From Rhodospirillales bacterium (GTDB taxonomy: Bacteria > Pseudomonadota > Alphaproteobacteria > Rhodospirillales > UBA2165): 39,350 bases of DNA. Shown here in pieces: positions 9,646 through 31,502 of the stretch; within the stretch, counting starts at the first letter, position 1, and each line of letters begins with the position of its first letter. The DNA is taken from NCBI GenBank assembly GCA_028823885.1, contig JAPPFK010000013.1:1-39350 (forward strand). The letters run 5' to 3'. Below the pieces are notes generated by a model that saw only the letters and a program-made list of their open reading frames with translations, ran no database searches and had not been told where the DNA came from. A program made the translations under genes and the position numbers.

Positions 9646-10324
9646 TTTGGTTCTCCGCGGCTGATACGGTTTGCCCATTGCCAACCCGCAATGCGGCCTG
9701 AATGTCGGATGCCGGCGAGACCTTGCCCAGCAGCGCCCGGGTATTCTGCAACGTCGCCTCGTGCAGGGCCGGGGTATGGGAGGCGACGCAGTCCTCGGCG
9801 ACGACCACATGGAAGCCCCGGTTATAGGCTTCACGCAGCGTGGCCTCGACGCAGACGTTGGTCTGGACGCCGGCGAATATCAAGGTCTCGATGCCCCGGG
9901 ACCGGAGGTGCGCCTCGAAGTCCGGGTTGGTGAACGCCGAATAGCTGTGCTTGACGAATTGAGGCTCGCCGTCGGCCGGCTCGACCCCGAAGGGCTCATG
10001 GCCTCGGGTCCCCGGAACGCAGCAGCTCCGCTCGATCCCCGCTTCCCGCTTTCGCCGAAGGAACGTCGGCGGCACCAGCGCATCGTCGTAGTTGGCGTAG
10101 ATCCACAGCACCTCTATGCCGCCCGCCCGGGCGCCGTCGATGAGGCCCTGCAATGCCGGGACGATGGCCCGGCACGGCGCCGGGTCCAGGCCCAGGCCGG
10201 CCACGAAGCCGTCGGCGGCGCAAAAATCCACCTGCATGTCGACCACCGCCAGCGCCGCCCGGGTCTCGGAGAGCAGCCCGAGCACCGGGTTGCCGGAGGC
10301 CGAATCCCGTACCTTCGCATCCAT
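9632..10324 (-). CDS. Isochorismatase-like cysteine hydrolase (amidohydrolase)
   Basis: A 230-aa member of the isochorismatase-like superfamily with its whole catalytic set: Asp in AVVDMQVDFC, Lys in FVKHSYSAF and the nucleophilic Cys in FAGVQTNVCVEATLREA. The sequence around the Cys is closest in feel to the ureidoacrylate / N-carbamoyl amidohydrolases of this superfamily, which split C-N amide bonds and release ammonia or carbamate. The ATG at 10324 overlaps the ligB stop by one base (TGATG), and the 3' end overlaps the cupin gene, so expression is tightly coupled. Next to an extradiol dioxygenase, this suggests that the ring-opened product carries an amide nitrogen. Confidence 0.85.
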   Translation of the reverse strand: MDAKVRDSASGNPVLGLLSETRAALAVVDMQVDFCAADGFVAGLGLDPAPCRAIVPALQGLIDGARAGGIEVLWIYANYDDALVPPTFLRRKREAGIERSCCVPGTRGHEPFGVEPADGEPQFVKHSYSAFTNPDFEAHLRSRGIETLIFAGVQTNVCVEATLREAYNRGFHVVVAEDCVASHTPALHEATLQNTRALLGKVSPASDIQAALRVGNGQTVSAAENQNGTR

Positions 10325-11169
10325 CAGTGAATGGTGTCCCACACCGTGCCGCCGATGCCGCAGCGCATCTCGGCGGAGGGAACGTAGAAGATGGACCGGG
10401 CCCTGGTCCCGCCGGCCGCCGCCATGGCGACCATCCAGGCCAGCAATTCCGTGGTGCCGCCGCCGCCCGCCGCGTTCATCTTCTCCACCGTCGCCTCGCG
10501 GCACACCTTGCCGAGATCGCCCTCCTCGAGCAGCGCCATGAACCAGCGGTCGAAATCCTCGTCGAGGGTGAAGTAGCGGGGGCCGCCCGGCTCGTGGGAC
10601 AGGCCGCCGGTCCCCATGACCGCAACCCGCATGCCGCCGGGCAGGTCGTCCCGGATCGTCCTGGCGATCACCTCGCCCGCGTGGACGCTGATTTCCGGGG
10701 TCGGCACCGGCGGGCTGATGCAGTTCATGTGGATCGGCACCAGGGGCACCGAATAGTCGGGCGTCAGGTAGTAAAGCGGCACCGAAAAATTGTCGTCGAA
10801 CAGCAGGTCGTCCCGGCTGTCGAGGCTCAGGCCGGCCGCCTCCCCCGCCTTCACCAGGGCCTCCGCCACATCGGGATGGCCGTCGACCTCGTAGCCGTCG
10901 AGGGCCAGCCAGGACTTGAAGAACTCGGCCGGGCCCCGCCAGCGGGCCGCCGTGCCGACGCAGAAATCGGGCGGGTCGTGGAGCGGCTGGTTGAGCATGT
11001 GGTCGTTGGCCACGCCGACGATCACGTCGGGCCTGGAGGCCTGGAGATGTTCCCGCATCCTCGCGTAACCGCCGACGATCTCGGCCTGCTCGTCGTCGGG
11101 CGCCGAGCCGAGCCAGCCGGTGCAGCCCGGCGCATGGGCCAGCGCGATCACCGATACGATTTCCGCCAT
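10324..11169 (-). CDS. Extradiol ring-cleavage dioxygenase, catalytic (LigB-like) subunit
   Basis: A 281-aa type II (LigB family) non-haem iron dioxygenase catalytic subunit. Its putative iron ligands fall where LigB has them: His12 (ALAHAPG), His57 (VANDHML) and Glu241 (GGTTELLAWMVA). A catalytic-base His192 lies in GTGGLSHEPGG. It would open a catechol-type or dihydroxypyridine ring beside the two hydroxyls using O2. A strong GGAGGGAGAG site precedes the ATG, 11 bases after the ligA stop. Protocatechuate, gallate or an N-heteroaromatic diol are all possible substrates. The adjacent amidohydrolase makes me favour a nitrogen-bearing ring, which is inference. Confidence 0.88.
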   Translation of the reverse strand: MAEIVSVIALAHAPGCTGWLGSAPDDEQAEIVGGYARMREHLQASRPDVIVGVANDHMLNQPLHDPPDFCVGTAARWRGPAEFFKSWLALDGYEVDGHPDVAEALVKAGEAAGLSLDSRDDLLFDDNFSVPLYYLTPDYSVPLVPIHMNCISPPVPTPEISVHAGEVIARTIRDDLPGGMRVAVMGTGGLSHEPGGPRYFTLDEDFDRWFMALLEEGDLGKVCREATVEKMNAAGGGGTTELLAWMVAMAAAGGTRARSIFYVPSAEMRCGIGGTVWDTIH

Positions 11170-11180
11170 CTCTCCCTCCT

Positions 11181-11498
11181 CTACGACCGCTTCCTGTGCT
11201 CGACGATCTGGTCGCCGAAGGACCGCCTGTAGGCCTGGGCGGCGTCGCTCTTGCTGTCGTTGTCGGCCGAGCCGTGCACCAGGCGGGTCACCTGGGGCAG
11301 GAAATAGGAATGCACCCCCATCTCGCCCAGCGTCACCACGTCGACCGCGCGCCAGGCGGCCCGCTCGGCGTCGCTCAATCCGTACTGTTCCATGACGTCT
11401 TCCATGCGGCCGGCGAAGCCGGTGTAGAGCGCCGGGTCGCGCCTGATCTCGAAAATCAGCCTGTTCGATGGAAGATCGGGATCATATTCGTTTGCCAT
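11181..11498 (-). CDS. Extradiol ring-cleavage dioxygenase, small (LigA-like) subunit
   Basis: A 105-aa all-helical small subunit of the LigAB dioxygenase type, matching the family in length and in signatures such as LIFEIRRDPAL, the YGLSDAERAAWRAVD segment and LGEMGVHSYFLPQ. In known LigAB enzymes the alpha subunit closes a lid over the active site of the beta subunit. The ORF track starts at 11690, but ATG 11498 (MANEYDPDLP) has GGGGAGG at good spacing and fits the family length. It is the first gene of the operon, and a 21-bp palindrome lies about 150 bases upstream. Confidence 0.86.
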   Translation of the reverse strand: MANEYDPDLPSNRLIFEIRRDPALYTGFAGRMEDVMEQYGLSDAERAAWRAVDVVTLGEMGVHSYFLPQVTRLVHGSADNDSKSDAAQAYRRSFGDQIVEHRKRS

Positions 11499-11970
11499 AT
11501 CGCCAGCCTCCCCTATTGGCCTCCCCCGCCAGTTTGGCACAGACCTTGCCCGAATGAAATTCCATACGGCATCGCCGAAATTGACGATGGTTTGCGAACG
11601 AAGAACCGGGTCGAGACCCGCGCCCGGCGATGGATGAACCGGCCGCGAGCCATGCATTTTTTGCATAGCTGTAAGGTGTTGAAATTCCATGATTTATAAA
11701 TATTTTCCAATTCGGCGCTTTTCGCCGGTATAGTCATTCATGGACATTAATAGACATTTATTGTCACCCGTTCGGGAGGTAACGCACCAAGAAGGTCGTA
11801 CAAAAACGCATAGCTCGCCTCCGGACGCAAAACGCCGCCCCGGTAATGGAGCGGCAGTGGTCTATTCATTTAGCTCGGGAGCGTGCCGGGGCAAGGGGGA
11901 GAAGGATGCCGAGCTGGGCGAAGTCGTGGCGCGGCAGAGTCGTGCGGGACGCAGTTCGGATGCGAGACAG
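11499..11970. other. 472-base intergenic region upstream of the dioxygenase operon
   Basis: This gap lies between the ligA start and the end of the HEPN-like gene. It holds the 21-bp palindrome at 11649-11669 and an AT-rich stretch (about 11680-11720, e.g. ATTTATAAATATTTT) that could carry the ligA promoter on the minus strand. ORFs listed across it on the plus strand (11740, 11846, 11883) run on into the antisense of the next gene and show no family features. I see no RNA gene or further repeat. Confidence 0.5.
11649..11669. promoter_or_regulatory. 21-bp near-perfect palindrome, probable operator of the ligAB operon
   Basis: The half-sites GCCATGCA and TGCATAGC are separated by a T-tract. 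Read on the ligA strand it is GCTATGCA-AAAAA-TGCATGGC, with one mismatched pair between the outer 8-base arms. A near-identical copy (18 of 21 bases) lies at 29223-29243. Position (about 150 bases 5' of the ligA ATG) and symmetry suggest a site for a dimeric repressor. No regulator gene is adjacent, so its owner is unknown. Confidence 0.5.
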
Positions 11971-13275
11971 TTATCCATGTCCCCTTATCTCCGCGAACTT
12001 TCTGGCCGAGTCGATCCAGCGACGCAGGGGTTGTTCCATTTCCTCCGGTGCGGCTTCCTCGACCATGTGGAAGATATCGTAATCGTCGTTCCGTTTTTGC
12101 CACATCGAGAGCAGGGGCTTGACGGTCCCGGCGTCCTCTGCCTGGACCTGAAGTGTGCGGAACCAGCCCTCCCGATCTGCCGGCCCGTTGAAAGCGCGGT
12201 TTTCGAGCACGCGGCAGCCGCATTCCCGGGCTACGGTCCAGAGAGTGTGTAGTGGCGTTCCCCGGGGAACGGGGTCGGCAATCGGGATCGCTTCGGAAGG
12301 TAATACGTCGACAAAGCGGTCTTCGAGGGACCAGGGAACGGCCTTGAAGCGCTCGGCTTGCGGGTTCCAGCGAATGCTTGCGCCGTCCGGGGTGTGGCCT
12401 TGGGCGCGGTTCAAGAAGGCCCGGAGCGAGGTTCGAGCCGAGGCGGCCGGGCTCGCGAGGATATCCCTCGCCCATTGCGTGAGTGCTTCAGAGAGCCAGT
12501 CCGACTCGCCATCTGCTCCATGAGATCCGTACCTGGAGAAATTCCAGAGGACCTCGGCGAAGGCGTTGAGCGGATGGCCTTCGCTCCTTAGCCAGTCCCG
12601 CATTTCGCCGTAGATGTCACGAAACGGTTCGCCGGCGTTATGCTGGTCGAGCAACACGTTCTTCATCAGCTTGTCGAGTTGTTCCCAGAGTTGCTGCGTC
12701 AGTTGCGTTTCGGGCATGTCCACCCGCCGGTTCTCAGAGAGATTCTGCTCCGCTATCTGGAAGCACACCCCCCAGATGGCGGCGAGGGTTTCGGGACTGT
12801 TGCTCGGCAGGGTGTTGTCCTCGATCAGCGTATATCGCCACCGTTCATAGCCGACTCCTCCCTGACCGGAAATCTCGTTGAGGAAATCCTCCACGTCGGC
12901 AATGGGCACGTATGAGTGAAGCGACTGGAATCGTCCGTAGAAGTCCCGCACGATGTCTCGTGCACGCGGTTCGAGCTCGGAGAAGAGCCGCGCTAGGTCG
13001 TGGGTACGGTAGCGTTTATTGTTCGCGGCATTCTGTGGAACGGGCCGTCCGATCAGTTCCTCGATGGTCAAGTTGGCGTTCTCCGCGATGAGGTACTTGA
13101 GGGTTTGTTCCAATCCGCTGTAGGCGGTGGTGATCACCATCCAGTTGCGTGCGATGTCGGTGCCCGGATGCAGTTCGTGCGTGACGGGCTCGCTTTCCAG
13201 GGTCTGGCTGGTCTTTCTGTGCGCGGTTCGGAGCCGCTGCACTATTTCCAACTTGTCGTCCCTGGACATCGGCAT
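11971..13275 (-). CDS. Unknown 434-aa protein with a HEPN-like N-terminal region
   Basis: A soluble protein with no signal or membrane helix. Residues 40-140 look like a HEPN fold. A helix (ITTAYSGLEQTLKYLIAEN) comes first, then YRTHDLARLFSEL, then a helix carrying Arg115-x4-His120 (RFQSLHSY), which matches the R-x4-6-H signature of HEPN ribonucleases. The remaining ~290 residues are unfamiliar, with tryptophan-rich patches such as EREGWFRTLQ-like segments, and no catalytic motif is obvious. Two ATGs lie 6 bases apart (MPMSRDD). GGAAGGACA precedes the first. Its base composition seems less GC-rich than the neighbouring core genes, so it may be acquired. HEPN proteins often act as RNases in toxin-antitoxin or phage-defence modules, and that role is not shown here. 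Confidence 0.65.
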   Translation of the reverse strand: MPMSRDDKLEIVQRLRTAHRKTSQTLESEPVTHELHPGTDIARNWMVITTAYSGLEQTLKYLIAENANLTIEELIGRPVPQNAANNKRYRTHDLARLFSELEPRARDIVRDFYGRFQSLHSYVPIADVEDFLNEISGQGGVGYERWRYTLIEDNTLPSNSPETLAAIWGVCFQIAEQNLSENRRVDMPETQLTQQLWEQLDKLMKNVLLDQHNAGEPFRDIYGEMRDWLRSEGHPLNAFAEVLWNFSRYGSHGADGESDWLSEALTQWARDILASPAASARTSLRAFLNRAQGHTPDGASIRWNPQAERFKAVPWSLEDRFVDVLPSEAIPIADPVPRGTPLHTLWTVARECGCRVLENRAFNGPADREGWFRTLQVQAEDAGTVKPLLSMWQKRNDDYDIFHMVEEAAPEEMEQPLRRWIDSARKFAEIRGHG

Positions 13276-26050: not shown

Positions 26051-26260
26051 CCACACGGCTCCGGCGCAATAATATTTCAAAAATGTCGGCGCACCGGTTC
26101 GAGCGGCCGCATACCGGCCACACACCGGACAGTGCGCCGGCGGCCGCTATTTTACCGGCGCGCTCCCTTGCGGACGGGTGGGGCGCTTTCTATTTTAGGG
26201 CCGGAATTCAGGTCCGCGGGGAACCTCGCCGCCGGACAACCCTGCTTGATTGGAACCGCC

Positions 26261-27232
26261 ATGTCCGAACACATCCACAACAAAGTCATGATCCTGGGCT
26301 CCGGCGCCGCCGGCCTGACCGCGGCCATCTATACCGCCCGGGCCAGTCTGGAGCCGGTGCTGATCCACGGCATGCAGCCCGGCGGTCAGATGACCATCAC
26401 CACCGATGTGGAGAACTATCCCGGCTTCGCCGATGTCGTCCAGGGCCCGTGGCTGATGGAACAGATGCAGGCCCAGGCGGAGAATGTCGGCACCCGGATG
26501 ATCACCGATACGATCGTCGAGGCCGATCTCGGCCGGCGGCCGTTCCGCATGATCGGCGATTCCGGCACCGTCTATACGTGCGACGCGCTGATCGTCTCCA
26601 CCGGGGCCCAGGCCAAATGGCTCGGGCTCGACAGCGAGCAGTCGTTCATGGGATTCGGCGTCTCGGCCTGCGCGACCTGCGACGGCTTTTTCTTCAGGGA
26701 AAAGGAAGTCCTGGTGGTCGGCGGCGGCAATACCGCGGTCGAGGAAGCGCTGTATCTCGCCAACCTGGCGGGCAAGGTGACCCTGATCCACCGCCGCGAC
26801 GAGCTTCGCGCCGAGAAAATCCTCCAGGCCCGGCTGCTCAACCACGACAAGATCGAGGTCGTCTGGGATACGGTACTGGACGAGATCACCGGCAACACCG
26901 ACGGCATAGCGCCCGAAGTCACCGGGGTGAAGGTCAAGAACGTCAAGACCGAGGAGGTGAGCGAGCTTTCCCTCGACGGCGTCTTCATCGCCATCGGCCA
27001 CAAGCCGAACACCGACCTGTTCGGCGGCCAGTTGGACATGGACGACGAGGGCTACCTGATTACGGCGGCCGATTCGACCGCGACCAACGTCCCCGGCGTG
27101 TTCGCCGCCGGCGACGTGCAGGACAACACCTATCGCCAGGCGGTCACCGCGGCCGGGACGGGCTGCATGGCCGCCCTCGAGGCGGAGAAATTCCTCGCCG
27201 AACAAGAAGCGGTTGCCGACGCCGCCGAATAA
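26261..27232 (+). CDS. trxB: Thioredoxin reductase TrxB
   Basis: A 323-aa low-molecular-weight thioredoxin reductase. The FAD-binding motif is MILGSGAAGLTAAIYTARA near the N-terminus. The redox dithiol is Cys137-Ala-Thr-Cys140 (SACATCDGFFF). The NADPH site is VVGGGNTAVEEALYLANLA with HRRDELRAEK. The C-terminal FAD motif is GVFAAGDVQDNTYRQAVTAAG. It transfers electrons from NADPH to thioredoxin. I start at ATG 26261 (MSEHIHNKVM), since the 43 extra residues in the ORF-track version are arginine-rich and unlike the family. The LysR gene follows after 51 bases on the same strand. Confidence 0.96.
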   Translation: MSEHIHNKVMILGSGAAGLTAAIYTARASLEPVLIHGMQPGGQMTITTDVENYPGFADVVQGPWLMEQMQAQAENVGTRMITDTIVEADLGRRPFRMIGDSGTVYTCDALIVSTGAQAKWLGLDSEQSFMGFGVSACATCDGFFFREKEVLVVGGGNTAVEEALYLANLAGKVTLIHRRDELRAEKILQARLLNHDKIEVVWDTVLDEITGNTDGIAPEVTGVKVKNVKTEEVSELSLDGVFIAIGHKPNTDLFGGQLDMDDEGYLITAADSTATNVPGVFAAGDVQDNTYRQAVTAAGTGCMAALEAEKFLAEQEAVADAAE

Positions 27233-27283: not shown

Positions 27284-28186
27284 ATGTCGATGGACTGGGA
27301 CAAGCTGCGGATATTTCATGCGGTGGCCGAAGCCGGCAGCTTCACCAATGCCGCCGAAACGCTCAATCTCAGTCAATCGGCGATCAGCCGCCACATCAGC
27401 ACCCTCGAACGCGGCCTCAACGTGCCGCTGTTCCACCGTCACGCCCGGGGGCTGATCCTTACCGAGCAGGGGGAGGATCTCTATCTGACCGCCCACGACG
27501 TGTTCCACAAGCTGGCCATGTCGGAAGCCCGGCTGACCGACTCCCAGGAGCGGCCCGCGGGCACGCTCAAAATCGCCACGACCATCGGCTTCGGCTCCGT
27601 ATGGCTGACCCCGCGGATCCGGGAATTCGTCGATCTCTACCCGGACATCGAGGTCAGCATCGTCCTGACCTACTCGGAATTCGATCTTTCCATGCGCGAA
27701 GCGGACGTGGCCATCGAGCTCACGCCGCCGACCCACACCGAGCTCATCCAGCGCCATCTGATGACCATCAACTACTACGTTTACGCGACGCCCGACTACC
27801 TCAAGGCCCACGGGATGCCGCAGACGCCGGAGGATCTCGACGGCCACAAGCTCATCACCTTCGGCCAGGAGGTCGGCGATCAGCGGGAGCTGCTGCCGGC
27901 CCTCAATTTCCTCCTCGATGCCGGCGCAAACCCCAAAAAGCCGCGCCGCCCGGTGCTGCAGGTGAACAATATCTACGGAATCTACCGGGCGGTCCTGTCG
28001 GGCCTCGGCATGGGCGCCCTGCCCAACTATTTCGATGAAGGCTCGGCCAACCTGGTCCGGGTGCTGCCGGAATTGCAAAGCCCGGCGACCGAGGCCTATT
28101 TCGTCTATCCCGAGGAACTGCGCCAGTCGGCCAGAATCGCGGTATTCCGCGATTTCCTGATCCGGAAGGTCATGGAATCCCGCTGA
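27284..28186 (+). CDS. LysR-family transcriptional regulator
   Basis: A 300-aa regulator. The winged helix-turn-helix is in residues 1-65 (FHAVAEAGSFTNAAETLNLS, then QSAISRHISTLERGLNVPLF and RHARGLILTEQGE). A periplasmic-binding-like effector domain follows, with GTLKIATTIGFGSVWLTPRI and LLPALNF. The position directly behind trxB is a pairing seen in alphaproteobacterial genomes and suggests co-transcription. The usual divergent target gene of LysR regulators is absent here, so its regulon is unknown. The 277 bases downstream hold a 12-bp palindrome (CTTAGCGCTAAG, 28273-28284) and nothing else I can name. Confidence 0.93.
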   Translation: MSMDWDKLRIFHAVAEAGSFTNAAETLNLSQSAISRHISTLERGLNVPLFHRHARGLILTEQGEDLYLTAHDVFHKLAMSEARLTDSQERPAGTLKIATTIGFGSVWLTPRIREFVDLYPDIEVSIVLTYSEFDLSMREADVAIELTPPTHTELIQRHLMTINYYVYATPDYLKAHGMPQTPEDLDGHKLITFGQEVGDQRELLPALNFLLDAGANPKKPRRPVLQVNNIYGIYRAVLSGLGMGALPNYFDEGSANLVRVLPELQSPATEAYFVYPEELRQSARIAVFRDFLIRKVMESR

Positions 28187-28463
28187 CTGAAATCCCAGTT
28201 CAGGGAAATTTTGGATAGTGGGTCACTATGAATTTCGCTTCTTGTAAGTCTTCTGGCGATTTCTGACCGCCGCTTAGCGCTAAGGCTATTCGCCCGTGCG
28301 CGACCACCCCTCATTCCACACAGCCGACCAAGCCTTGCCCTGTCGCTGGCAGGAGCGCCAGTTTCCCGCCAATCGCCAGGTCAGCGATGTGCTTGGCAAG
28401 CTGGTCAGTGCCGCAAGGGCTATGTAGCTTGCCCATGAACGCAATATTTGAACGGGATTTCTT

Positions 28464-29192
28464 ATGATCAAGACAATCTTGAGGCTGTTCCGCATCGCCA
28501 AAAACACTTTCTTTCTAGGGATGTTGTGCGTCACGCTGTTAGTGACGGTGGCAGGACTTGCCATTCACAGCATCCAGCTCACTACGAAACTTACACTCGC
28601 GGCAACGAACGCGGCGGCAGCAGCGGCGAACCACCGAAAGGCCATGGCTGTCGCCGCTTCAGCGCATCGCAAGGACAAGGCGAAGGCCGTCGCGAAGACG
28701 AAGGCAAGGGAAAAGGCGAAGGCACGGATCAGGCGGTTTGCCGTTGCCGGCGCGGCCGCAGTTCCCATGGCCGGGATGTTGGCAGGGCCGGCAATTGCCG
28801 GTTCCTTCGAAGTGGCGGATTTCAATAATTGGAAGACAAACAACCCGGAAGGAGGGTTCGCAGACTATGCCTGCGAAACAGGCGAGGCAGGCGCGGAACT
28901 GGTTGATGAAGTCCTTCGAGAGCTCCCGGAACCGATGAGGCCGCATCCCGACGCAGTTCGTGAATGGATACCCCAATGTGGCGATCAATTGGAAGATCAG
29001 CCATGGGAAGTTCTGCCGACTTGGGACGAAATCATCGGGTGGGTGCCATCTTTTGACGGCCTCGGGCGATGGCTGCCGTCACCCGAGGACGTGAATGACT
29101 CGATACCGAACGGCGAAGCACTCAAGGAATTACTTCCCACTGAAGAAATGCAGGAGTTAATTTCGCGATTCAAGCGTCAAATTTCAAAATGA
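28464..29192 (+). CDS. Unknown membrane-anchored protein with an Ala/Lys-rich linker
   Basis: A 242-aa protein. Residues ~16-38 form a membrane helix (FFLGMLCVTLLVTVAGLAIH). Residues ~43-90 are an Ala-, Lys- and Arg-rich stretch (AKAVAKTKAREKAKARIRR) likely to be a long helix or coiled coil. Residues ~91-113 form a second hydrophobic segment (FAVAGAAAVPMAGMLAGPAIA). The C-terminal ~130 residues are acidic and soluble, with repeated tryptophan/proline patches (REWIPQ, WEVLPTWDEIIGWVPSF, GRWLPSPEDV). The GGGAT ahead of the ATG is a modest ribosome site. Composition is less GC-rich than the flanking core genes, suggesting transfer. I do not recognise the family. A palindrome and a strong terminator lie downstream. 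Confidence 0.62.
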   Translation: MIKTILRLFRIAKNTFFLGMLCVTLLVTVAGLAIHSIQLTTKLTLAATNAAAAAANHRKAMAVAASAHRKDKAKAVAKTKAREKAKARIRRFAVAGAAAVPMAGMLAGPAIAGSFEVADFNNWKTNNPEGGFADYACETGEAGAELVDEVLRELPEPMRPHPDAVREWIPQCGDQLEDQPWEVLPTWDEIIGWVPSFDGLGRWLPSPEDVNDSIPNGEALKELLPTEEMQELISRFKRQISK

Positions 29193-29222
29193 GACACTAC
29201 CAACCTTGCAGGAATTCGACGA

Positions 29223-29243
29223 GCTATGCAAATTTTGCATAGC
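29223..29243. promoter_or_regulatory. 21-bp palindrome, second copy of the ligA-upstream motif
   Basis: Half-sites GCTATGCAAA and TTTGCATAGC form a palindrome broken only at the centre base. 18 of 21 bases match the reverse complement of the site at 11649-11669. It lies 31 bases after the membrane-protein stop and about 80 bases before the hairpin cluster, so it could regulate a transcript starting there. Confidence 0.5.
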
Positions 29244-29322
29244 AAACGTGTGGTAATCACACTGGCGATTTTGCACTGCAACAACTACATATCTTGACAG
29301 CGACGGCGTCAGCTGGCGCTCT

Positions 29323-29379
29323 CCGGGCCCCCCCGGCCCGGATTTCCAAGGGTCTTCGGACCCTACGTCTCCCAGACGT
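29323..29379 (+). ncRNA. Cluster of three hairpins, candidate structured RNA
   Basis: Three stems follow one another: CCGGGCC-CCCCC-GGCCCGG (29323-29341), AGGGTC-TTCG-GACCCT with a stable UUCG loop (29349-29364), and ACGTCT-CCC-AGACGT (29365-29379). The terminator follows 21 bases later. The second and third stems stack with no bases between them. This could be a small RNA ending at the terminator, or a 3' UTR of the membrane-protein gene. No convincing promoter boxes are visible and it resembles no RNA family I know. Confidence 0.35.
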
Positions 29380-29400
29380 GAAGCCTCCCTGTTAAACTCA

Positions 29401-29432
29401 CCGGGAAAGTTTTACTTTCCCGGTCTTTTTTT
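29401..29432 (+). terminator. Strong Rho-independent terminator
   Basis: A perfect 10-bp stem CCGGGAAAGT/ACTTTCCCGG with a TTT loop, followed by TCTTTTTTT. The T-run is on the plus strand only, so it stops plus-strand transcripts, either from the membrane-protein gene or a small RNA, before the convergent EF-G-like gene. Confidence 0.93.
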
Positions 29433-29462
29433 GCTCCTAGATCGGGTCGTGTTTTGACGCCC

Positions 29463-31502
29463 TTATTCGGCGGCGATGCCGAGCTCCGATTGCCGGGCCT
29501 TCACCACCTGATCGGCTTCCTTGCCGGTTATTTCCTGCAGCCGGTCGAACTCGAATTCAAAGGTGCCCACGCCCTGGGTCGACGAGCGCAACTCGTTGAT
29601 CAGGTCGAGAATTTCCGATTCCGGCATGTGGGCGTTCACCTCGTCCCAGCCCTTCCAGCCTTCCTTCGGCTCGAACCCGAGGATTTGGCCGCGGCGCCCG
29701 GAAACCAGGCTTTGAACCCGCGACAAGAATTCCGACGGAACGGAAATGGTGACCGAGAAAATCGGCTCCAGCAGGACCGGGCCGCATTTCGGCATCCCTT
29801 CCCGCATGGCCAGGCTGCCGGCCGTCTTGAACGCCTGGTCCGAACTGTCGACGGCGTGGAACTGTCCGTCGGTCAATTCGACCGAGACATCGACCACGGG
29901 AAATCCGAGCGGCCCCTGGGAGAGATACTCCTTCACCCCGTTTTCGACCGCCGGGATGTACTGCTTGGGCACCACGCCGCCGGTGATCGAGTCGGTAAAC
30001 TGGAACCCCGAACCTCTCGGCAGCGGTTTGATTTCGATATGAACGTCGCCGAACTGGCCGTGCCCTCCCGACTGCTTTTTGTGCCGCGCATGTTGCGAGA
30101 TGGGCTTCTTGATGGATTCCTTGTACGCCACCTGAGGCAGGCCGCCATCGACCTCGAGCTTGTTTCGGTTGTGCATCCGCTCAAGCGCGATTCGGAGATG
30201 GGTTTCGCCCTGGCCGCGCAGCACGAACTCGCCGGTATCCGGATTCGGGCCGTAGGTCAGCGACGGATCCTCTTCGATGAGCCGCGCCAGCGCGCCGGCC
30301 ATCTTCACCTCGTCGTCCCGCCTGCCCGCATGGATGGCCAGCGCGTAGACGGGCTTCGGCGGCGCCGGCCACGCCGGACCTTCGGCGTTGCCCGACGGCG
30401 ACAGCAGGTCTCCCGAGCGCACTTCCTCCATCCGGCCGAGCGCGCCCACCTCGCCCTCGGCGAGTTTGGCGACCTTGTCCTGGTCGGCGCCCCTCAGCTT
30501 GACGATACCGCTCACCCGGGAGCCGCCGAGCGTCGCGCCGTCCTCGACGTCGCCACGCAGAATCCGGGCGATGGACCGCTTGCCGGTCTGCGAACCGTGA
30601 GAGGTCTTGAAGACCCGGGCAACCGCCTCGCCGTCGGCATCGATGCCGATCCGCTCGCGGGTCGCCGCGATGCCGGGCGCCTCGTGGCGCAGCACCTTCA
30701 ACAACCGCGTAATGCCGTGATCGGATTCGGCCGAGCCGAAAAACACCGGGACGAGATTCCCCGCCCTGGTCGCCGCCGCGAGGTGGTCGTAGGTCTCGCC
30801 GACCTCGGGCACCTCGTCTTCCAGCAGCTTCTCCAGCAGGCCGTCATCGAAATCGGAGAGCGCCTCCAGCATTACCGTCCGTTCGATTTCCAGACGGTCG
30901 CTGAGGTCGGCGGGTACGTCCGCGATCTCCTTGGGATCGCCCTCGGTGTACTCGAAGGCCCGCTTGCTCGCGAGATCGACATATCCGGTGATCTCATCGC
31001 CTGTCCTGATGGGAATTTCGCGCAGGACCAGCGGCTGGTCTATGACCCCGCGCAGCGCGTCCACGCTCTCGGCGACGCTCGCCGCGGCGCCGTGGATTTT
31101 GTTGATGAAGATGATATGCGGCACGCCTTGCTCGTGGAGCCCGCGCAACAGCCGCGCGGCGCCGAGGGCCTTGTCCGCGCCGGGCTCGATCACCACCACG
31201 GCGATATCACATACGGCCAAGGCGCTGAGCGTGTCCTGGATGAGTTCGACCGAACCCGGACAGTCCAAGAGAGTCCACGAATCGCCGAGATAGTCGAAGC
31301 TGGCGACATTCATTTCGACGCTCATGGTCCGGGAGCGCGCCTCGGGAGATGAATCGCCGACCGTATTGCCTTCGGTGATCCTGCCCAGGCGATTTGTCGC
31401 ACCGGCCTTGAACAGCATGGCTTCGAGTAACGAGGTCTTGCCGCTCAGGTACGGACCCACAAGGGCCGCGCAACGGGGACCGAATTCAGATGTGTCTGCC
31501 AC
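29463..31502 (-). CDS. EF-G-like translational GTPase paralogue
   Basis: A 679-aa protein with the full EF-G domain order. The G domain has P-loop LVGPYLSGKTSL, a switch region RTMSVEMNVASF, a G3 variant LLDCPGSVEL in place of DTPGH, and a G4 variant FINKIHG in place of NKxD. Domain II follows, and domains III-V end with the EF-G-like RGQILGFEPKEGWKGW. Domain IV has GHGQFGDVHIEIKPL. It is the second, divergent EF-G found in many alphaproteobacteria, not the essential fusA, which would sit with rpsG and tufA. I choose GTG 31502 (VADTSEFGPR) with GGAGG upstream instead of the ORF-track 31586. It lies 161 bases after the aminotransferase on the same strand. The altered G4 motif may change guanine specificity. 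Confidence 0.88.
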   Translation of the reverse strand: MADTSEFGPRCAALVGPYLSGKTSLLEAMLFKAGATNRLGRITEGNTVGDSSPEARSRTMSVEMNVASFDYLGDSWTLLDCPGSVELIQDTLSALAVCDIAVVVIEPGADKALGAARLLRGLHEQGVPHIIFINKIHGAAASVAESVDALRGVIDQPLVLREIPIRTGDEITGYVDLASKRAFEYTEGDPKEIADVPADLSDRLEIERTVMLEALSDFDDGLLEKLLEDEVPEVGETYDHLAAATRAGNLVPVFFGSAESDHGITRLLKVLRHEAPGIAATRERIGIDADGEAVARVFKTSHGSQTGKRSIARILRGDVEDGATLGGSRVSGIVKLRGADQDKVAKLAEGEVGALGRMEEVRSGDLLSPSGNAEGPAWPAPPKPVYALAIHAGRRDDEVKMAGALARLIEEDPSLTYGPNPDTGEFVLRGQGETHLRIALERMHNRNKLEVDGGLPQVAYKESIKKPISQHARHKKQSGGHGQFGDVHIEIKPLPRGSGFQFTDSITGGVVPKQYIPAVENGVKEYLSQGPLGFPVVDVSVELTDGQFHAVDSSDQAFKTAGSLAMREGMPKCGPVLLEPIFSVTISVPSEFLSRVQSLVSGRRGQILGFEPKEGWKGWDEVNAHMPESEILDLINELRSSTQGVGTFEFEFDRLQEITGKEADQVVKARQSELGIAAE

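Follow-up and report, generated by a model that had tools for sequence, protein, structure and literature searches.

The window analysed here, a 39,350-nucleotide stretch of a Rhodospirillales bacterium genome, carries a ligAB gene pair and, further downstream, a trxB-lysR gene pair followed by a predicted small RNA (sRNA) gene. A 21-bp palindrome lies upstream of ligA (GCCATGCATTTTTTGCATAGC, 11649–11669), and another lies upstream of the sRNA gene (GCTATGCAAATTTTGCATAGC, 29223–29243). The relevant features are the following.

10324–11169, minus strand: LigB-type ring-opening dioxygenase (PF02900)
11181–11498, minus strand: small ligA-like gene, 105 aa, upstream of ligB, with its start codon ~150 bp from the palindrome
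11645–11903, plus strand: copy of the noncoding element A, ~260 bp, comprising the left palindrome, an AT-rich spacer, 10-bp repeats, an inverted half-site, a GC-rich hairpin and the GGGGCAAGGGGGA end
11649–11669, plus strand: palindrome at the left end of this dispersed repeat, matching a LysR-type operator (core ATGCATTTTTTGCAT, 11652–11666; scoring 32.7 with the operator matrix, higher than any other place in the window)
11729–11759, plus strand: internal 10-bp periodic repeats TATAGTCATT CATGGACATT AATAGACATTT, the unit number of which differs among copies
11798–11819, plus strand: inner inverted half-site GTACAAAAACGCATAGCTCGCC, the reverse complement of which resembles the left end of the element, in the manner of a terminal inverted repeat (TIR)
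11833–11855, plus strand: GC-rich hairpin of element A (by reading)
26132–27232, plus strand: trxB, thioredoxin reductase (TIGR01292)
27284–28186, plus strand: LysR-type regulator, LsrB/VtlR-like by synteny, lacking cysteines
28211–29207, plus strand: ~1-kb segment inserted in comparison with a sister species and containing an ORF at 28464–29192
29223–29243, plus strand: predicted LysR-type operator native to the sRNA gene and conserved in the family and the class
29297–29432, plus strand: predicted sRNA gene, the 5' end placed by a -10-like TACATA at ~29285; covariance model match at 29314–29436, conserved core at 29348–29398, terminator at 29400–29432

The two palindromes share 18 of 21 bases, in agreement with a sequence-only reading of the window, which had also held that such a match is unlikely to arise by chance. 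With up to three mismatches allowed, the window contains just these two places, each on both strands (four matches), compared with a mean of 0.48 in shuffled sequences. Genome-wide, with up to two mismatches, the pattern occurs at 23 places per strand and the reversed control at none, so that the motif is far from a chance expectation. The genome-wide scan, which the same reading had called for, thus recovered many copies of the motif, most of which turned out to be the end of a longer noncoding repeat. Several of these copies lie 43–118 bases from contig ends, as is usual for assembly breaks in repeats. The two palindromes of the window look different in kind: the one at 29223 appears to be a native sRNA operator, and the one at 11649 a repeat-borne copy.

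The regulator gene adjoining the native site belongs to a conserved neighbourhood. The gene order in the window is carB-greA-lrp-trxB-lysR, and in Agrobacterium vtlR lies downstream of trxB and directly upstream of abcR1 (PMC7486931); taken together, these arrangements identify the regulator as LsrB/VtlR-like. The NCBIfam collection contains no LsrB-specific model, so orthology to LsrB rests on synteny and the conserved neighbourhood. The LysR orthologues found upstream of the sRNA box are 50–62% identical to the window protein across the class and 74–96% identical within the family. Sinorhizobium LsrB, which activates nfeR1 from a T-N11-A box, TGCA-N6-GCAT, at -72 to -60 (PMC10746234), is reported to respond through redox cysteines. 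The 300-aa window protein contains no cysteines at all, which makes thiol redox sensing of this kind impossible. The sequence-only reading had envisaged a GntR-, MarR- or TetR-type regulator for the motif; the operator tracks a LysR gene instead, and the likely regulator is the LysR-type protein encoded at 27284–28186.

When the region 29080–29470 was used as a query, it was found in 20 of the 24 genomes of the family. The family alignment contains a nearly invariant RNA-like block, AAGGGTCTTCGGACCCTACGTCTCCCAGACGTGAAGCCTCCCTGTTAAACT plus a terminator, and, ~65 bp upstream of the predicted sRNA start, a palindrome of the form ATGCR-N5-YGCAT in which the arms are kept and the loop is variable. 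In the window, the corresponding LysR-type T-N11-A box is located at about -64 of the predicted start. The terminator stem shows compensatory changes, with both sides changed in 7 of 22 predicted pairs, and the fold has a z-score of -5.15. The RNA contains two anti-Shine-Dalgarno stretches, CUCCC at a hairpin loop and CCUCCC outside it. A covariance model of the sRNA matches 110 of 240 class-level Alphaproteobacteria genomes, and among the best 30 of these loci most have an exact box 5' of the RNA, with a LysR gene ending just before it; none of the loci scanned reaches an Rfam threshold. The hairpin cluster noted earlier beside the 29223 site is a conserved, predicted sRNA gene. The ~1-kb insertion lying between the LysR gene and the sRNA operator in the window is absent from a sister species, and the ORF that it carries, the putative unknown membrane protein of the sequence-only reading, has no Pfam or NCBIfam match. 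Two weaker matches of the sRNA model in the same genome (G000:C83:28247-28363, E 7e-6, and G000:C180:4949-5057, E 4e-4) are possible paralogues. Downstream of the sRNA terminator, a 24-bp stretch (29436–29459) recurs elsewhere in the genome, at several places (C176, C38, C1, C168 and C13), hinting at another short repeat.

The palindrome near ligA has a different context. When the motif copies were aligned, most of them continued into a common sequence beyond the palindrome, which defines element A. With positions 11600–12000 of the window as a query, 26 matches were found in the genome, most of which span all or part of the ~260-bp element; nine short ones match just the internal repeats or a single end. 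When the family was searched, element A proved abundant in this genus alone (the two sister species gave 34 and 35 matches), with a single core-only match outside it, in one further genus; these counts of 26–35 BLAST matches per genome include fragments and core-only matches. Across more than 50 copies, the order of parts is GCGAGCCATGCA-N5-YGCATAGC, a spacer, two to several 10-bp units GGACATTNAT, an inverted stretch of the GGGAGG/CCTCCC type, the inverted half-site GTACAAAANTGCATAGCTC, then a GC-rich hairpin and the GGGGCAAGGGGG end. The distance from the palindrome to the inner half-site is mostly 72, 82, 92, 116–118 or 126–128 bp. Inverted copies flank the inner ~175 bp of the element and are followed by a constant right arm of ~85 bp. 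No genes were called inside the copies, and an Rfam scan of the element region yielded no credible family. Some copies occupy orthologous places in the sister species and are therefore old.

Two further observations concern related repeats. A second dispersed family (L033–L036 and L038–L041 in this genome, L128–L135 in the sister) has only the 10-bp GGACATTNAT units in common with element A; many of its copies have a left palindrome of the TTGGAATATATTTCCAA type and a different right side. In another genus of the family (G005), seven matches at further places (for example, L079/L136) contain GGTCATTTATGGACATTCATGG, which suggests an older repeat superfamily built on the 10-bp units.

The architecture of element A raises an alternative, namely, that the 11649 palindrome is a mere terminal inverted repeat of a MITE-like element, the resemblance to a LysR operator being coincidental or due to a shared preference for self-complementary ends, with no protein bound. 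The left end recurs in inverted, TIR-like form on the inner right side of the element, and the copies are dispersed, noncoding and genus-restricted, as would be expected of such an element. Past mobility is suggested by the dispersion of the copies; 1.55 Mb of a sister genome contain no clean empty site or target duplication, and the flanks that differ are rearranged or replaced. A symmetric 27-bp operator matrix, for which 37 sRNA-linked operators from other genera served as the training set, bears directly on this alternative. In the window, the matrix scores 32.7 at 11649 and 30.4 at 29223, and the next best score is 8.0; over 50 mononucleotide shuffles of the window the mean best score was 8.8, although one shuffle reached 19.8, so that scores near 20 are not conclusive by themselves. 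In the sister genome G012 (1.555 Mb), the top match is the genome's own sRNA operator (29.5), the second is a standalone site (27.1) with an orthologue in the genome of the window, and the matches ranked 3–15, all 13 of them, are element palindromes (26.9–17.6), followed by an unlabelled match at 17.3. Both window sites contain the LsrB box TGCA-N6-GCAT. The match takes in the outer bases and the spacing of an operator learnt from other genera, which speaks against a fortuitous TIR. A standalone operator-like palindrome shared with the sister species (L015 in this genome, C28:30638 in the sister) precedes the gene of a small protein with a CxxC motif and is a candidate further target.

Comparison of 15 orthologous element pairs from two sister species indicates how the resident copies evolve. 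The palindrome arms are identical at 300 of 315 positions. The corresponding figures, each tested against the arms, are 2566 of 2953 for the remainder of the element (p = 3e-6), 696 of 777 for the loop and spacer (p = 0.002) and 1123 of 1233 for the left flank (p = 0.015). Although many copies of the element had been detected through their right part, almost all bore the palindrome, so the choice of copies should have little effect on the arm comparison. The excess conservation of the arms makes it likely that the palindromes of resident elements are functional. Transposition alone does not require conserved arms in resident orthologous copies, and, together with the operator match and the lack of a clean empty site or target duplication in the 1.55 Mb, this renders the explanation by a mere TIR unlikely. 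Selection on the palindrome as an RNA hairpin, that is, a processing or termination signal rather than a DNA operator, could also conserve the arms; the palindrome is self-complementary and the elements hold other hairpins. Nevertheless, the same C/A arm mismatch is retained in most copies, the A-C mismatch in sister species would break a pair without compensation, and the 29223 site lies upstream of the predicted transcript start. Moreover, among the 21 copies for which both neighbouring genes were called (by a simple codon-usage script), one is located between convergent genes. We consider an RNA role for the palindrome very improbable.

The surroundings of the dispersed copies are mixed, including ligAB, TRAP and ABC transporters, MFS proteins, oxidoreductases, typA, trmFO and aspS (named by reading). 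The palindrome side faces the 5' end of a neighbouring gene at about 25 of 37 distinct loci, compared with about 12 in the opposite case, a weak bias (p = 0.047) in a hand count made after merging orthologues. Beside the copies, there is no clear enrichment of a -10 box at the spacing of LysR activation (a mean of 1.15 vs 1.03 matches); the match profile does have its maximum at offset 45, the expected place, and it is weak. Several copies lie just 33–62 bp from a start codon, which is too close for activation from -65.

From the position of the 11649 palindrome ~150 bp upstream of ligA, and from other copies near transporter and catabolic genes, one could also argue for dedicated co-regulation, with ligAB as a specific target of the regulator and the shared motif tying aromatic catabolism to the sRNA locus, as the sequence-only reading had surmised. 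However, no such palindrome is present upstream of ligA in any of the four relatives read (L042, L056, L067 and L043, with LigB 98, 97, 79 and 75% identical, respectively), the ligA copy lacks a -10-like hexamer at the expected spacing, and the site is one among many copies of a dispersed repeat. In L056 and L043, by reading, a divergent GntR-like (FCD-looking) regulator gene adjoins ligA instead, with a different inverted repeat between the two. This arrangement is missing from the window, lost at a breakpoint near 11570. Nucleotide similarity between the window and its two closest relatives stops at 11514 and 11566. Given the absence of the palindrome from the relatives, either element A arrived or the region was rearranged in the lineage of the window. 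The suggested specific link to aromatic catabolism is accordingly not supported. The lack of conservation upstream of ligA orthologues is among the outcomes that the sequence-only reading had itself named as refuting its proposal, and dedicated co-regulation seems quite improbable. Regulation of ligAB via the 11649 site is possible but, apart from the site, unsupported.

The explanation that we favour, with a probability of roughly 0.7, is that the two palindromes belong to one family of LysR-type operators, that the LsrB/VtlR-like regulator encoded at 27284–28186 most likely recognises both, and that the repeat dispersed the operator. The earlier proposal that one regulator controls both loci survives in part: the matrix from outside the genus assigns the two sites to the same operator type, so one regulator could recognise both, and the specific aromatic connection is not supported. 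Under this explanation, a LysR dimer would bind 29223–29243, ~64 bp upstream of the predicted sRNA start, and activate the sRNA, which carries the anti-Shine-Dalgarno stretches and would silence mRNAs. The same kind of operator at 11649–11669 would terminate a short noncoding repeat that occurs mostly in this genus and has probably spread an LsrB-type operator to many intergenic places, often upstream of genes. At the element copies, the regulator might act on the adjacent gene (here, ligAB), be titrated, or both. A more tentative extension, which we regard as possible rather than probable, is that a genus-specific small repeat captured a class-wide LysR operator, that transposition carried this operator to numerous promoters, so that the regulon grew or a decoy array arose, and that selection keeps the arms in place.

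The predicted module resembles the LsrB/VtlR-AbcR1/NfeR1 circuit of Rhizobiales, where LsrB activates AbcR1 and NfeR1 in Sinorhizobium (PMC10746234, PMC8844928, PMC7486931). In both cases, a LysR gene lies 3' of trxB and 5' of an sRNA gene, a T-N11-A box TGCA-N6-GCAT is found at about -65 (relative to a predicted start for the window sRNA), and the sRNA combines anti-Shine-Dalgarno motifs with an intrinsic terminator. In contrast to that circuit, the window regulator lacks cysteines and copies of the operator are dispersed by a repeat; unlike AbcR (alpha-r15), the window sRNA has no Rfam alpha-r14 or alpha-r15 match, either at gathering or, within the window, at E values up to 5. With SorX of Rhodobacter (RF02784; PMC6238624, PMC9438474), the window sRNA has in common CCUCCCUGUU and the terminator layout; RF02784 scores 22.2 bits in the window against a gathering threshold of 46.6, and 44.1 bits in the best relative (L242), which has a similar locus. 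However, SorX originates by cleavage of the 3' UTR of an ompR-type gene; the window sRNA, at a LysR locus, has a predicted promoter and operator of its own. Element A itself is comparable to Correia (CREE/NEMIS) elements and other small mobile repeats, which are likewise short, noncoding, dispersed and intergenic with TIR-like ends, and which can carry a protein-binding site (IHF) or a promoter (PMC2649163, PMC2229807). In contrast to these, element A carries the apparent operator of a specific LysR-type regulator, and no target duplication was found. Nothing directly comparable, that is, dispersed elements carrying operators, was found for alphaproteobacteria in the openly accessible literature.

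The presence of this operator-sRNA module beside lsrB/vtlR means that a circuit described in Rhizobiales reaches across much of the Alphaproteobacteria. If the element-borne sites bind the regulator, one could trace here how a bacterial mobile repeat has rewired an ancient regulator-sRNA circuit, and the sister species would offer natural presence/absence comparisons of the element-borne sites.
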